Below are positions 18,468-40,138 of a stretch of 64,000 bases of DNA, in pieces. The notes below the pieces were generated by a model. It was not told the origin of the DNA and searched no databases. It was given only the letters and a program-made list of their open reading frames with translations. How positions within the stretch are numbered: the stretch's first letter is position 1; each line of letters starts with the position of its first letter. Source of the stretch: Nocardioides daedukensis (lineage in GTDB: Bacteria; Actinomycetota; Actinomycetes; Propionibacteriales; Nocardioidaceae); contig NZ_JACCAA010000001.1 in NCBI RefSeq assembly GCF_013408415.1, positions 1,240,001 to 1,304,000 on the forward strand, written 5' to 3'. The translations under genes and the position numbers were made by a program.

Positions 18468-18836
18468 TCAGGCCTGGGTGTGGGCGTGCTCGGCGATGCG
18501 CTCGATGCCCTGCTTGACGCCCTCGGCCAGCTGGCCCTCGGCGAACTGCGACTGCATCGCAGCGACCGTCAGCTCGATCTCGGAGTCGGTGACCTTGCGG
18601 CGCACCTGGGCGCCGGTGACCACCTCGAGGATCCGCGCGGTCGGGTCGACCAGGATCAGGATGCTGCGGGCCGGGGCCACCAGCGTGTTGTGCAGGCGCG
18701 TCGCGAACGGACGCGAGGCACCGTTGATGTCACCGACATAGACGGAGAACTCGAAGCGGCACAGCTGCTCGGACCTGCGGATCGTGGTGTCGATCGCGAG
18801 GCGCTCGGCGTTGCTGAAGAAGTCACCACTTGCCAC
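18468..18836 (-). CDS. DUF5130 (TPM-like domain) protein
   Basis: About 122 residues. The core FFSNAERLAIDTTIRRSEQ ... FEFSVYVGDING ... HNTLVAPARSILILVDPTA resembles actinobacterial DUF5130 proteins, related to the TPM fold. The longer open frame to 18953 is Pro/Arg-rich and looks like overlap shadow. GTG 18836 keeps the family N-terminus and overlaps the end of the upstream membrane-protein gene (stop 18823-18825), implying coupling. Function is unknown; cytosolic by absence of a signal. Confidence 0.75.
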   Translation of the reverse strand: MASGDFFSNAERLAIDTTIRRSEQLCRFEFSVYVGDINGASRPFATRLHNTLVAPARSILILVDPTARILEVVTGAQVRRKVTDSEIELTVAAMQSQFAEGQLAEGVKQGIERIAEHAHTQA

Positions 18837-35051: not shown

Positions 35052-36080
35052 TCAGAGGGTTGCGTGCTTCGCGATCTCCTTGATGAGCTCGACCTTGACC
35101 AGGTCCGGCGCGAAGGACGCATCGACGGCGGCTCGGGCCAGGTCGACCACGCCTGATTTGTCGAGCTCGAGCAGGTCGGCTGCGATCTCATATTCGCGGT
35201 TCAGCGTCGTGCCGAACATCGGCGGATCGTCGGAGTTGATCGAGAACTTCACGCCGGCGTCGCGGAACGCCCGCAGCGGGTGCACGGCGAGCGATTCCAC
35301 TGCGCGGGTGGCGATGTTGGAGGACGGGCAGACCTCGAGGGAGATCCCGGTCTCGGCGAGATGGGCGAGCAGCTCGGGGTCCTGGACGGACGACGTACCG
35401 TGCCCGATCCTCTCGGCACCGAGAAGCCGGACGGCGTCCCAGACGGTCTCGGGCCCGGTGGTCTCCCCCGCGTGCGGCACGCTGCGCAGGCCTGCGGCAC
35501 GCGCCTTGTCGAAGTGCGGCTTGAACTGCGGACGGGGTACGCCGATCTCCGGCCCGCCGAGTCCGAAGCCGACCAGTGCGTCGGTTCGGTGCTCCAGCGC
35601 ATAGCCGATTGTTGCGTCCGCTGCAGGGATCCCGCTCTCCCCGGGGATGTCATAGATCCAGCGCAGCACGATCCCGAAGTCGCGCTCCGCCCGACGCCGG
35701 GCCTCCTCCAGCGCCTCGGTGTAGGCCTCGATCGGAATGCCGCGGATCACGGAGGTGTAGGGCGTGCAGGTGAGCTCCGCATAGTGCACGTTCTGGCCCG
35801 TGGACATTTCGCGGGCGATCTCGTAGGTCAGCAGCTCGATGTCCTCGGGCGTACGCACCAGGTCCACGACGGTGAGATAGACCTCGATGAAGTGCGCGAA
35901 GTCGCGGAAGGCGAAGAAGTCCTTCAGCTCCTCGGGGTCGCTGGGCACGGTCCCGGGGTGTCTCTCGGCCAGCGTGCTCACGATCCGTGGCGAGGCGGAG
36001 CCGACGTGGTGCACGTGCAGCTCGGCCTTGGGCAGGCCAGCGATGAAGGCGGACAGGTCACGAGGGGTCTGTGCGGTCAC
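35052..36080 (-). CDS. add: Adenosine deaminase
   Basis: About 342 residues, metal-dependent TIM barrel. Zinc ligands and catalytic residues are visible: HVHH (ELHVHHVGS), HAGET with catalytic Glu, GHGTS, and the Asp pair in SINSDDPPMFG. The enzyme deaminates adenosine to inosine in purine salvage. ATG is absent at the N-terminus; GTG 36080 is supported by a CACACT hexamer 6 nt upstream. The open frame to 36368 is antisense to the next operon. Confidence 0.93.
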   Translation of the reverse strand: MTAQTPRDLSAFIAGLPKAELHVHHVGSASPRIVSTLAERHPGTVPSDPEELKDFFAFRDFAHFIEVYLTVVDLVRTPEDIELLTYEIAREMSTGQNVHYAELTCTPYTSVIRGIPIEAYTEALEEARRRAERDFGIVLRWIYDIPGESGIPAADATIGYALEHRTDALVGFGLGGPEIGVPRPQFKPHFDKARAAGLRSVPHAGETTGPETVWDAVRLLGAERIGHGTSSVQDPELLAHLAETGISLEVCPSSNIATRAVESLAVHPLRAFRDAGVKFSINSDDPPMFGTTLNREYEIAADLLELDKSGVVDLARAAVDASFAPDLVKVELIKEIAKHATL

Positions 36081-36086
36081 TCTCGC

Positions 36087-36120: not shown

Positions 36121-37029
36121 TCAGCGGTCGACGTCTGCGAGCGCGGCACGTCCCCGCGCGCACGCCTCGACGACCTCGCGACTCCTGTCCGCCGCGTCGC
36201 GGCCGTCCGCGAGCCGGGTCGCAGTGTCATAGGCGTCGAGCACCCGGTGCCATGCCTGGAGATCGTCATCACCCCGCATCGGGTGCGCGTCGATGGCCGC
36301 ACCCAGACCGAGCAGATCGGACTGTGCCTGCTCGGCGAGGTTCCTGCTCGCCGCCACGTCCGCGGCACTCGTCAACACCTCGGTCCGCCGGCGGCGACGC
36401 CACCAACCGAGCACCGCCAGACCCCGAAGCATCAGAAACCAGACCACAAGGCCGCCTGCGAGAGCGATGGCCGCGAACTGGACCCCACGCACGGTCCGGC
36501 TGGGTTCCACGATGCGTTGCGGCGCGACGTCCTCACCAGCCCGGTCGGCCCGATCCGCGCGGGACTTCTCGATCGCCGCCTGGACGCCGGCGTCGCCGCT
36601 GTCGTTGAGCACCATGTCGACCAGGGCCACGAACTCGTCCGCGGCAGGATCGTCAGTGAAGTCCGTGGCTTGCAGCGCCGAGCTCGTGTTCGTCGAGCCG
36701 TCAAAGCCTTGCCTGGTCGCCACCCCGAACGCGGGGAGTGAGTCCGCGCCATACACGAGGACGACCTTGACCCCGGGGGATGCCTCGGCCAGCATCTGCG
36801 AGGCGAGCAGGTGCGGTGAACGCCTGGCCTCGCGCGGCAGGCTCTCCAGCGCGACGACGGTCGCGGAGACGTCGGCCTCCTCGACCAGCTCCCTGATCTC
36901 GGTCTCCCGCTCGGCACCCAGACCGGCTCCACTCTCGATGCGAACCTCCGTGTCCGCGTGAGCCGAGACCGCCAGCACCACCGGGACCAGGACGCCCAGA
37001 ATGCCGAAGACGATCGTGTGCCCCCTCAT
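36121..37029 (-). CDS. TPM-like envelope protein, third gene of coupled trio
   Basis: About 302 residues. Signal peptide (TIVFGILGVLVPVVLAVSA), an extracytoplasmic alpha/beta region (TEVRIESG ... REIRELVEEADVSATVVAL-type pattern), one membrane helix (FAAIALAGGLVVWFLMLRGL) and a cytosolic helical domain of about 85 residues. The layout mirrors the first gene of the operon. The ATG at 37029 overlaps the preceding stop as ATGA, so the longer frame to 37098 is rejected. No known family; function unknown. Confidence 0.72.
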   Translation of the reverse strand: MRGHTIVFGILGVLVPVVLAVSAHADTEVRIESGAGLGAERETEIRELVEEADVSATVVALESLPREARRSPHLLASQMLAEASPGVKVVLVYGADSLPAFGVATRQGFDGSTNTSSALQATDFTDDPAADEFVALVDMVLNDSGDAGVQAAIEKSRADRADRAGEDVAPQRIVEPSRTVRGVQFAAIALAGGLVVWFLMLRGLAVLGWWRRRRRTEVLTSAADVAASRNLAEQAQSDLLGLGAAIDAHPMRGDDDLQAWHRVLDAYDTATRLADGRDAADRSREVVEACARGRAALADVDR

Positions 37030-37685
37030 CGTTCGAACCCCGCCAGGTAGGACCTGTTGCGGCGCCGGGTCCAGCGCACGAACCTCACGGCGTTCCACAG
37101 CAGCACGGAGAGCAGGGCGCCGAGGAACAACCCGTTGAGGACGTCGAAGGCGAGGTCCTGCTCCTCGTCGTCCACGTGGTCCGCCGCATGTTCCACGGTG
37201 TCCAACATGGTCTCGGGAGTCTGGGTGCCGAACGTGCGATCGAGGATCACAGCGTCCGACTTGTGCACGTGGTCGGTGACGAGTCGGTTCTGGTCCAGGG
37301 CGAAGAAGACCGCTTGCTCATCCAGCTCGTCCGCGATCCTGGTCAGCAGCACTCGTGTCTGCCCCGCACCTCCCCGCAGATCGGGGATGACCAACAGGTA
37401 CGTCGTCAGCTCACTGTCCTCGACGGCCTCGCGCACCTGGGGAGTCACCAAGTCCTTGCCCACGGTGTCGGCGAGCAGCGGGTCGACGTACACCGGGTCC
37501 TCGCGCAGGTGATCGGCAAGCTCGGTCACATATGACGTGCGCACCGAGGTGTCAACGACCGGTCGGTTCTCCGTCGAGTAGTGCGGGGTGAAGAGCCCGA
37601 CCACCCAGCCCACGGCCACCAGGACGCACCCGACACTTGCGATCTCCTTCCAGCCAAAGCGTGCCTGGCCCTTCCCGGTGCTCAC
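37026..37685 (-). CDS. TPM-like membrane protein, second gene of coupled trio
   Basis: About 219 residues. An N-terminal helix (IASVGCVLVAVGWVVGLF) anchors an outside domain with the pattern EDPVYVDPLLADTVG ... SELTTYLLVIPDL, similar in kind to TPM proteins. A second helix near the C-terminus (VLNGLFLGALLSVLLWNAV) precedes a basic tail RWTRRRNRS. The GTG at 37685 overlaps the upstream stop as GTGA. Unknown function; its outside domain is the shared feature with the flanking genes. Confidence 0.7.
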   Translation of the reverse strand: MSTGKGQARFGWKEIASVGCVLVAVGWVVGLFTPHYSTENRPVVDTSVRTSYVTELADHLREDPVYVDPLLADTVGKDLVTPQVREAVEDSELTTYLLVIPDLRGGAGQTRVLLTRIADELDEQAVFFALDQNRLVTDHVHKSDAVILDRTFGTQTPETMLDTVEHAADHVDDEEQDLAFDVLNGLFLGALLSVLLWNAVRFVRWTRRRNRSYLAGFER

Positions 37686-38917
37686 CGGCGCTCCAGTGCG
37701 TCCAGGTGAACCCTGCGGGCCCAACGCTCGTCGACCGCGCCATAGCCGGTGGCGGTCCAGATGTCATCGGTCTCGTAGTAGGCGCGCACCCACCCGTCGG
37801 CATCGGGCAGCAGCAATGAGTCCGGACGGCCACCACTGCGCACTGCACTGGCACAGGCCGCGCAACACGGAAGCACGGACTGCTTGCGGCGCAGGGTGGT
37901 CGTGCCGCGGTGGGCGGGGTTGAAGAAGCAGCGGCTCTCCCGGCTCCATCCACCGAGTGCGCGAACACCGTCGGCAACCAGGAAGTGCACCCCGAGCAGG
38001 TCCCGCACGTCCTCGGAGCTGGCATGGGCGTTGGCCGCGTCGGCGAAGGCGAGCGCCTTGTCGTAGGCCGGGTCCCCCGGCACCCGGTCCGAAGTGGAGA
38101 TCGCCTCGGCGAGATCGGTCAGCTCCTCCTCGACCATGAGCGGAGTGAGCCTGGCAGCCAACGGGTCCACCTCGTCGGCTACTTCCTGTCTGCGAGCGGC
38201 AAGGTGGTCGGCACGGACCCGGCGCACGATCATCAGGCAAGTGCCGAGGACCACGAGGCCCATGGTCGCCACGCTGAGCGGGCGGAAGTCATTCGGCGAC
38301 CAGGAGTCGGGGCGCAACGCCGGATAGGCGGAGTCGACCAAGAGGCTGGTGTCCCCGGCGAGCTCGTCCACCAGGTCCTTGGGTTCCGGCGGGTCGGCGG
38401 AGGCGAGGCGGAGGTAGATCCATGCCTGGGCGACGGCACTCACCTGCGAGAACCGGTCGGGGTCGGGGCTGCGCTCCACGAGCGGCGCCACCACCGCACG
38501 GGCGCCCATCAGGACGGCGTCGATCAGAACCTTGCGTTTCCCCGACTGCAGGTGCAGGACCTCGAGCGATGCCCCCGAGGAGCCGATCAGGACACCATCC
38601 TCGGCCCCGACGGCGGTCAGGGTCTCGGCCGGGTCTGCGTACATCGACGGCGGGACATCTGCGATCTCGCTCCACAGTCCGACCTTGATCGGGACACCCA
38701 GGTCTGCCTCGGCCAACGCGGATTCCAGCCGCTCTCGCCACAGGTCGACCTCACCCGCTGCCGGCCCGGCTTCGAGATAGACCCCGGACTCGGCCAAATC
38801 GGCTCGCACCTGTGCGAGGCGCGGCCCGTCCCCGGTCGGGTCCGCCGACGCCGGTGCGACCCCGGCGAGCCCAAGCAGGCACATGCCGGCGAGCAGCAGT
38901 CGCACGCGGAGTCCCAT
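37682..38917 (-). CDS. TPM-like envelope protein with C-terminal Cys cluster, first gene of trio
   Basis: About 411 residues. Signal peptide (LLLAGMCLLGLAGVAPASA), outside alpha/beta domain (SGVYLEAGPAAGEVD ... EADLGVPIKVGLW ... DGVLIGSSG), membrane helix near 215-235, then a cytosolic helical region and a Cys-rich end: CFFNPAH followed by LPCCAACASAV. Cys/His spacing suggests a zinc site (inference). The domain order matches the third gene plus this extra module. ATG 38917 lies 6 nt after TAGATT. Unknown function. Confidence 0.72.
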   Translation of the reverse strand: MGLRVRLLLAGMCLLGLAGVAPASADPTGDGPRLAQVRADLAESGVYLEAGPAAGEVDLWRERLESALAEADLGVPIKVGLWSEIADVPPSMYADPAETLTAVGAEDGVLIGSSGASLEVLHLQSGKRKVLIDAVLMGARAVVAPLVERSPDPDRFSQVSAVAQAWIYLRLASADPPEPKDLVDELAGDTSLLVDSAYPALRPDSWSPNDFRPLSVATMGLVVLGTCLMIVRRVRADHLAARRQEVADEVDPLAARLTPLMVEEELTDLAEAISTSDRVPGDPAYDKALAFADAANAHASSEDVRDLLGVHFLVADGVRALGGWSRESRCFFNPAHRGTTTLRRKQSVLPCCAACASAVRSGGRPDSLLLPDADGWVRAYYETDDIWTATGYGAVDERWARRVHLDALERR

Positions 38918-38969: not shown

Positions 38970-39668
38970 TCAGCCCGCGTTGATCCCCTTGAAGGTGTTT
39001 GCCGTCAGCTCGTCGATCGTCTGACCACCGACCGGCTTGCCGTTGATGAAGACGGTGGGGGTGCCGGTCACACCACGCTTCGAGGCGTCGTCGGTGGCGT
39101 TGACGACCCACTGCCGGAAGGAGAGATCCTCGATGCCCTTGCGGACGTCGGACTCGCTCGCGCCGGCCTGAACGGCCAGGGCGACGATCTCGTCGTCGGA
39201 GGGCACGGTGCCGCTGGGCTGGTTGGCGAACAGCAGGTCGTGCAGCTTGAGCGCGGCCTGACCGCCAGCCTCGTCGAGCACGACACCCAAGGCGTTCATG
39301 GCGCGCACCGACCACTCGTTGAGGAAAGCCATCGGCCGATAGACGACGTACGCCGACCCGTCCTGCGCAGCGGCGAGCAGCTCATCGTTGGCAACCTTCT
39401 TGAAGTCGGCACAGTGCCCACACTGGAAGTCCTCGAAGATCTCCACCTTGACCGGCGCCTCAGGATCGCCGACGCCGAGCCCATAATCGCCCTCGGCAGC
39501 GACCTTCACGTCGATCGCAACCGTCTCGGACGAGTTGTCGCCCGGCCGGTCCCCCGCCTCCCCGGAGGTGTCGCGATTCGACTGGATCGCCCAGCCGATG
39601 CCGACGATCACCACGAGTACGACGGCGATCACACCTGCGATCAGTGCGTTGCGCTGCTTCTGGGTCAT
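38970..39668 (-). CDS. Membrane-anchored DsbA-like thiol-disulfide oxidoreductase
   Basis: About 232 residues. One N-terminal helix (ALIAGVIAVVLVVIVGIGWA), an acidic linker, then a thioredoxin-fold domain with active site FQCGHCADF and cis-Pro loop GVTGTPTVFING. It acts outside the membrane, probably in disulfide formation in exported proteins. The ATG at 39668 has GGAAG upstream and overlaps the MauE-like stop as ATGA, so the two are coupled. Confidence 0.92.
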   Translation of the reverse strand: MTQKQRNALIAGVIAVVLVVIVGIGWAIQSNRDTSGEAGDRPGDNSSETVAIDVKVAAEGDYGLGVGDPEAPVKVEIFEDFQCGHCADFKKVANDELLAAAQDGSAYVVYRPMAFLNEWSVRAMNALGVVLDEAGGQAALKLHDLLFANQPSGTVPSDDEIVALAVQAGASESDVRKGIEDLSFRQWVVNATDDASKRGVTGTPTVFINGKPVGGQTIDELTANTFKGINAG

Positions 39669-40138
39669 GGACGTGCTTCCTCCGTGGGTGTGGGGAACAG
39701 GACGGGGTCGAGGGCCAGCCGGGTCCGCGGACGCCAGACCAGCAGTGCCGAGGCCACCAGGAGCGCGACGTCCCGGGCGATCTCGAGGGGATACTTCGAC
39801 GTCGCGTCGGCAATCTGGCCGCCGCCGCCGAAGCAGCCGCAGTCGATCTGGAGTCCGCGCTGCCAGGCGGAGGCGATGCCGATGATGAACACGACGAACA
39901 ACAGCCCGGACAAGACTGCGCTCCACCGCGTGAAGAGGCCGACGACGAGGCAGGCACCGATCACGATCTCAACCAGCGGCAGCACGTGGCCGACGGTGGG
40001 GACGATCGACTCGGGCAACAGGTCATAGGCGCGCACGGCGCGCACGCTTGCCGCCGGATCCGGCAGCTTGAGCGCGCCGGCCACGATCCACACGCCGCCG
40101 ACCACCAACCGGATGATCAACCCCGCCCAACCCCACAT
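39665..40138 (-). CDS. MauE/DoxX-family membrane protein
   Basis: About 157 residues with four membrane helices. The fold signature is GLIIRLVVGGVWIVAGALKL plus LPLVEIVIGACLVVGLFTRW. A loop with DCGCFGGGG supplies a Cys pair. MauE proteins support disulfide formation, and DoxX-like helices may bind quinone; together with the coupled DsbA-like gene this suggests an electron path for periplasmic thiol oxidation (inference). ATG 40138 lies 6 nt after TAGGAT. Confidence 0.88.
   Translation of the reverse strand: MWGWAGLIIRLVVGGVWIVAGALKLPDPAASVRAVRAYDLLPESIVPTVGHVLPLVEIVIGACLVVGLFTRWSAVLSGLLFVVFIIGIASAWQRGLQIDCGCFGGGGQIADATSKYPLEIARDVALLVASALLVWRPRTRLALDPVLFPTPTEEARP

Follow-up and report, generated by a model that had tools for sequence, protein, structure and literature searches.

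A coupled trio of TPM-like membrane proteins with a Cys/His domain in Nocardioides daedukensis, a candidate envelope complex

Results and discussion

We found that three coupled genes, A, B and C, in a window of 64,000 nucleotides (the whole stretch of Nocardioides daedukensis DNA that was analysed) encode TPM-like membrane proteins that may form a system. Membrane proteins with a TPM fold are a known kind; what is new is the operon of three paralogues with Cys domains, together with its fused form. Our tentative reading, held with confidence just short of even, is that A, B and C make up one heteromeric membrane complex serving as a scaffold or an assembly/quality-control factor for an envelope complex, and not as a phosphatase; the physical complex, its orientation, its zinc, its client and its role are what we infer from the comparisons below. 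The TPM fold occurs in photosystem repair, in respiratory supercomplexes and in membrane-stress loci, and its function is disputed; a compact operon of three TPM-like paralogues, with natural fusions and a strict Cys/His domain, offers a small and testable system for that question.

Gene organization

All features of the trio lie on the minus strand. Gene A (37682-38917) encodes 411 aa with a signal, a TPM-like outer domain (residues 31-183, 38369-38827, from predicted fold comparison), a transmembrane (TM) helix (residues 213-231, 38225-38281), a cytosolic helical part and a Cys/His domain, the motif of which is located at 37853-37930. Gene B (37026-37685), which starts with GTG, encodes 219 aa with one TM helix at either end of a TPM-like outer domain (residues 47-177, 37155-37547, likewise from predicted fold comparison), and gene C (36121-37029) encodes 302 aa with a signal, an outer domain, a TM helix and a cytosolic helical part, without the Cys domain. 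The 4-bp overlap of A and B (GTGA, 37682-37685) contains the end of A and the start of B, and that of B and C (ATGA, 37026-37029) contains the end of B and the start of C. The first-pass annotation had described three genes joined by 4-bp overlaps, and its coordinates, strand and both joints proved exact. It had also assigned to two of the proteins a shared order of signal, outer domain, TM helix and cytosolic helical part; these are A and C, which both begin with a hydrophobic signal and carry a TM helix further on; in B the order is TM, outer domain, TM. The signal order holds for A and C of the window but does not extend to many Nocardioides trios, in which A and C have no recognisable signal peptide. 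A promoter/terminator scan gave nothing beyond shuffles.

Paralogy of the three proteins

No Pfam or NCBIfam family passed its cut-off for A, B or C, a search of PDB sequences with A matched no chain, and the TPM_phosphatase model (PF04536) gave no match at E <= 1 for any of the three. The sole PF04536 match in the genome of this strain is an unrelated gene of the window (18489-18824, minus strand).

Profiles grown from the proteins themselves connect the three classes. Specifically, an iterated profile from A gathers C-type proteins, including C of the window (64 bits), and a profile from C gathers A-type proteins. A profile grown from B, covering 132 positions of the outer domain, recovers 75 of the 76 A/C-type frames in the set made up of the scan loci and the window, with A and C of the window themselves not reached. 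The A and C profiles, which mainly cover the second half of the proteins, found none of 42 B-type frames, and HHalign comparison of the outer domains of A/C with those of B gave a probability of 99.4%. By these profile comparisons the three proteins are paralogues, with B connected via the wider family and not directly through the window proteins. Weak matches were set aside as chance or repeat matches, among them EccE, which matched a TM stretch of a C relative (E 0.001), and designed 'Pizza' repeat proteins from a PDB search with the B alignment, for which no single stretch passes.

Predicted fold of the outer domains

Structure models were made for A and B, from 56 of 67 A/C candidates (alignment A4) and 33 of 41 B candidates (alignment A5), respectively. 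The A model had a mean pLDDT of 84.7 and a pTM of 0.47, and the B model 78.0 and 0.59. For residues 31-183 of A the top row was 2kpt (Z 8.1, rmsd 3.5, 114 aligned), with 2kw7 (Z 7.4), 4oa3 (7.2), 3pvh (7.2), 7tbr (7.1) and Psb32 (6.4) further down; the TPM-fold rows spanned Z 6.4-8.1, and the next row over the stretch reached only 3.9. For residues 47-177 of B the rows were 5anp (Z 9.7), 7tbr (9.0), 3ptj (8.1), 2kw7 and 2kpt (both 7.6) and Psb32 (7.3), the first other fold appearing at 5.6. In addition, 9h70 (LMTP1) was present in the lists of both proteins. The only matched entry with TPM in its title is 7tbr; BA41, BA42, PG_0361, cg2496, AtTLP18.3 and Psb32, also among the matched entries, are TPM proteins. 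The helical-Cys half of A, within the whole-A model, gave generic helical rows only.

The TPM-fold reading is tempered by three results: Foldseek gave no significant E-value (best 0.42 for A and 0.052 for B, the latter to RecJ), several Z values are below 8, and the HHalign probability to the TPM set stayed below 5 (0.7-4.7; the set was small, was made up of closely related sequences and contained at least one misframed row, L051). We consider it likely from the models that the outer domains of A and B have a TPM-type fold. The outer-domain similarity claimed in the first-pass annotation agrees with this, and its refuting condition of unrelated folds did not arise, in that A and B are predicted to share the fold and the C class is homologous to A by profile; the TPM-like label itself is upheld by the predicted fold of A and B, but the Pfam and NCBIfam models and HHalign give it no support.

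The Pfam name TPM_phosphatase would suggest a phosphatase or other enzyme, and the fold predicted for the outer domains is compatible with such an activity. However, the A/C set has no invariant acidic column in its outer domain, where the highest acidic share is 86% (counted by alignment column), and the available part of a 2025 survey doubts the phosphatase claim for TPM (PMC12419801); an enzymatic role therefore appears highly improbable.

The fold rows also raise the question of a fixed subunit of a respiratory complex, comparable to the TPM-fold subunit of the mycobacterial bcc:aa3 supercomplex, since the supercomplex chains 6adq_J, 6hwh_O, 8ovc_V and 8hcr_J belong to the top fold matches of A (Z 6.7-6.9), with supercomplex chains at Z 5.9-6.7 for B. 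In the accessible part of one source, the supercomplex protein Msmeg_4692 and C. jejuni CcoZ are described as having a TPM fold (PMC8267372); further papers on the supercomplex are PMC8523172 and PMC11189923. The trio is patchy, however, being present at trio level in 16 of 98 genus genomes, and no respiratory genes were seen beside the annotated loci, which makes this reading distinctly unlikely. Msmeg_4692 and CcoZ have in common with A and B the TPM fold that is predicted for the outer domains of the latter, but are not a coupled trio, and the same part of PMC8267372 reports no Cys domain for them.

Relation to known protein families

The trio resembles proteins with the TPM domain (PF04536; AtTLP18.3, Psb32, BA41/BA42 and 7tbr of R. 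marinus) in the predicted outer fold of A and B and in its membrane/envelope setting, but differs from them in having no Pfam match, three coupled paralogues and a cytosolic Cys/His domain. The Rv1476 membrane protein family (PF20381) shares with A and C an outer-type domain followed by a TM helix and basic residues; its members, in contrast, are single proteins that lack the helical-Cys half and measure about 185-200 aa in the loci seen. When further members of our family were scanned with Pfam and NCBIfam, none passed a cut-off save one C-type protein of the genus, which matched PF20381 partially (52 positions only). A related singleton matched that model below cut-off over positions 11-152 of 156, A, B and C of the window gave no match to it at E <= 1, and HHalign to Rv1476 gave 11-35%. 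A distant relation between the trio and Rv1476 is plausible, and the sequence models do not place the trio within that family.

YdjH-type TPM proteins encoded beside PspA are likewise membrane TPM proteins, and the available part of PMC11237479 reads them as chaperone-like assembly partners. For the present family, however, a PspA-linked system was rejected: PspA is present in all 22 genomes compared and lies beside a listed family locus in none of them (places compared by eye). Searches of published TPM-domain work (actinobacteria, Rv1476, supercomplex, thylakoid lumen and operons) returned no title on such a trio among the matches listed.

The Cys/His domain and membrane topology

The pattern C-x3-P-x-H...C-x2-C is invariant in all 56 aligned A/C proteins (C330, P334, H336, C352 and C355 of A), as are W387, G391 and G393. 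C330, H336, C352 and C355 fit a zinc-ribbon-like pattern of four Cys/His ligands in two knuckles, a likeness of pattern only, and the Cys-His-Cys-Cys domain probably binds zinc, to judge from its sequence. In several glycine-tailed singletons, C-x2-D replaces the last C-x2-C.

The Cys cluster (CFFNPAH...CCAAC) had been taken as something added to the first protein of the trio. It is indeed confined to A in the window; the wider set indicates that it is not an addition of A, but a domain of the A/C class that C has lost here. In the set used for the tree, the Cys pattern is present in 41/41 A and 37/41 C proteins (a count that leaves out a fourth family gene of L102, 12631-13881, without the searched pattern), and the four exceptions are the window-type C proteins of the window locus and three relatives. 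Since C of the window has no Cys domain, two such domains are not always needed.

In 77 of 82 A and C proteins, whether or not a signal is recognisable, Lys and Arg are more numerous after the main TM helix than before it, suggesting that the Cys side is inside; A and C would then be oriented with their outer domains outside. A hydrophobic N-terminus was seen in 19/41 A and 9/41 C proteins, rough numbers given that starts were picked by rule. An alternative for the lineages without a signal is that the TPM-like domain of about 170 residues is cytosolic instead of outside. No signal is recognisable in A and C at L032:4963-6150, at L034:5900-9128 and in further Nocardioides trios, where the TPM-like domain is followed by a TM helix and then by basic residues; Rv1476 proteins have the same order as these signal-less A and C proteins.

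An envelope sensor would also have an outer domain, a TM helix and an inner Cys/His set that does not vary, as A and most C proteins do; in such a sensor the TPM-like domains would read the state of the envelope and the cytosolic Cys domain would relay it as a zinc/thiol switch; the DsbA-like and MauE-like genes adjoining the window copy would suit such a switch. Yet no regulator, kinase or sigma factor is a constant neighbour in the loci inspected, DsbA and MauE occupy that site without the trio in other genomes, and window-type C has no Cys domain, so that we regard a sensor as rather unlikely.

Conservation and distribution of the trio

The query P0001 matched 25 of 96 relatives, chiefly via the Cys part. 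A genome scan yielded 40 loci from Nocardioides, Mumia, Jiangella, Phytoactinopolyspora, Desertihabitans and metagenome bins, and the check on operon conservation proposed in the first-pass annotation came out in its favour: 38 of these loci hold the trio (at least two A/C-type frames and one B-type frame together), and the matches of the two misses, L109 and L113, lie less than 400 bases from a contig end. A few of the 38 contain a frame that seems to be broken (L108, L127) or truncated (L130). Where family frames adjoin, a 4-bp overlap is possible at 92 of the 112 joints and a 1-bp overlap at 2, while the other 18 permit neither (counted in 52 of 55 loci, three having no joint; four loci fetched twice were left out). 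The order is C-A-B in some Nocardioides, and some genomes carry more than one set. For example, trio-level A/C genes occur at three places in G028, as two tandem trios in L098 (G018) and as four genes in a row in G343.

A tree was made from the A and C proteins of 41 trios (82 in all). Of these trios, 33 came from the 40 scan loci (those with exactly one B and clear neighbours); starts were set by rule, and of proteins longer than 480 aa the C-terminal 430 residues were used. Three changes, the minimum possible, account for the labels A, C, window-type A and window-type C on this tree, in which window-type A belongs to the A side and window-type C to the C side. The A proteins of L041, L045 and L049, from another family of the order, were placed at the base of the C side (split support 93/89). 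Over the 41 trios, the correlations between the distances of A, B and C were 0.79, 0.86 and 0.84; permutation gave at most 0.24, 0.41 and 0.34. These sequence comparisons fit an old duplication after which A, B and C were inherited jointly, with species history contributing to the mirrored trees.

The A1 profile matched 39/98 genomes in the class sample, 79/98 in the genus sample and, for the phylum, 14/100, of which 11 lie outside the class; several of these hits are close to the threshold or run through stop codons. Many of the A1 matches are not trios but single proteins with a signal, an outer domain, a TM helix, helical and Cys parts and a glycine-rich tail, and others are short proteins with only a TM helix, a helical part, a Cys part and a tail. 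At E <= 1e-50, the level of trio A/C proteins, 16/98 genus genomes were matched (counted on A/C hits), and the trio is accessory. Short relatives without an outer domain were seen in the genome of this strain (L032:2283-3164) and at L175:4768-5730, L178:4789-5718, L183:4817-5629 and L184:4819-5658, and most genus genomes without a trio-level hit match a short relative of this TM/helical/Cys/glycine-tail kind. Near the trio in Phytoactinopolyspora, L110:12779-14089 and L131:14180-15496 encode proteins of about 437 aa in which no TM helix or searched Cys pattern was found, the former also having no Pfam match.

Fused form and proposed complex

In three genomes of two families (G181, G164 and G132), a fusion protein of 653-747 aa contains two outer domains, each with an independent E of 5e-8 or better; one TM helix or more separates the two, others follow the second, and the protein has one Cys set. 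The fusion gene is followed by a C-type gene with an 11-bp overlap, so that three outer domains and two Cys domains are kept in two genes. The arrangement of these sequences supports the parts working jointly and sharing one topology.

We therefore propose, with the reserve stated at the outset, that the old paralogues A, B and C are made together and would form one complex in the cytoplasmic membrane, with three TPM-like domains on its outer face and one (here) or two (elsewhere) small Cys-His-Cys-Cys domains, probably zinc-binding, on its inner face; the complex would act as a scaffold or an assembly/quality-control factor for an envelope complex. Arguing for one complex are the trio in 38/40 loci, the 92/112 4-bp joints, the tree labels and distance correlations, the fusions in three genomes, the TPM-fold rows for A and B, the invariant Cys/His set and the placement of charges; the scaffold or assembly role is suggested by published TPM proteins described as assembly partners (available parts of PMC11237479, PMC12419801 and PMC8267372). 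Arguing against it are the patchiness of the trio (16/98 genus genomes), neighbours that name no client, mirrored trees that partly reflect shared species history, and a window C without a Cys domain. Stated more broadly, and again slightly less probable than its converse, the trio may represent an actinobacterial envelope machine, a hetero-oligomer of three different TPM-like proteins that would connect the outside of the membrane with cytosolic zinc domains, settle as a unit at new sites and exist in three-gene and fused two-gene forms.

Genomic site of the window trio

Genes beside different trios include those for biotin carboxylase, pyruvate carboxylase, acyl-CoA dehydrogenase, class I tRNA synthetase and DUF4097. 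A pathway drawn from neighbour genes was rejected because the neighbours differ between lineages, and no client was named by them in the loci inspected.

In the window, an adenosine deaminase gene (35052-36083) flanks the C side and a DsbA-like gene (38970-39668, if the start overlapping MauE by 4 bp is used) the A side, with a MauE-like gene (39665-40138) on the DsbA-like side. Near full-length relatives of C, about 35% identical, were found in 3 other genomes of 215 of the genus (any match, 13/215). These three have the order orn, MauE, DsbA, A, B, C, with the deaminase next in two and absent from the stretch of the third. In each of the four window-type genomes, C stops short of the Cys domain and the two overlaps measure 4 bp. 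At the DsbA loci of 29 of 57 other genomes no A, B or C match was found; in 27 of the 29 the deaminase lies on the expected side of DsbA with spacing that leaves no room for a trio, and two have no deaminase in the locus. Since the DsbA/deaminase site is free of the trio in 27/29 relatives, the simplest reading is that the trio arrived as a unit. A functional link to DsbA and MauE was considered and rejected in favour of a landing site, as those genes occur together without the trio elsewhere.

The genome of this strain contains a second, canonical trio (L032), and two of the three genomes with C relatives, G326 and G366, apparently also hold one (L126 and L105). The window trio might be a decaying spare copy with no function of its own, a view in keeping with this second trio, with the domain lost from C and with the small number of genomes having near full-length C relatives. 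However, in the three relatives every reading frame is kept, both 4-bp overlaps are present and C ends in the same way. Codon positions also count against decay: the third is the most divergent in all pairs of A and of C and, for B, in the pairs within the three relatives, though not in two of the three comparisons that involve window B. Decay is a very unlikely explanation. At L207:13835-15232, where the deaminase is missing beside the trio, an integrase-like gene (recognised by eye) adjoins orn.
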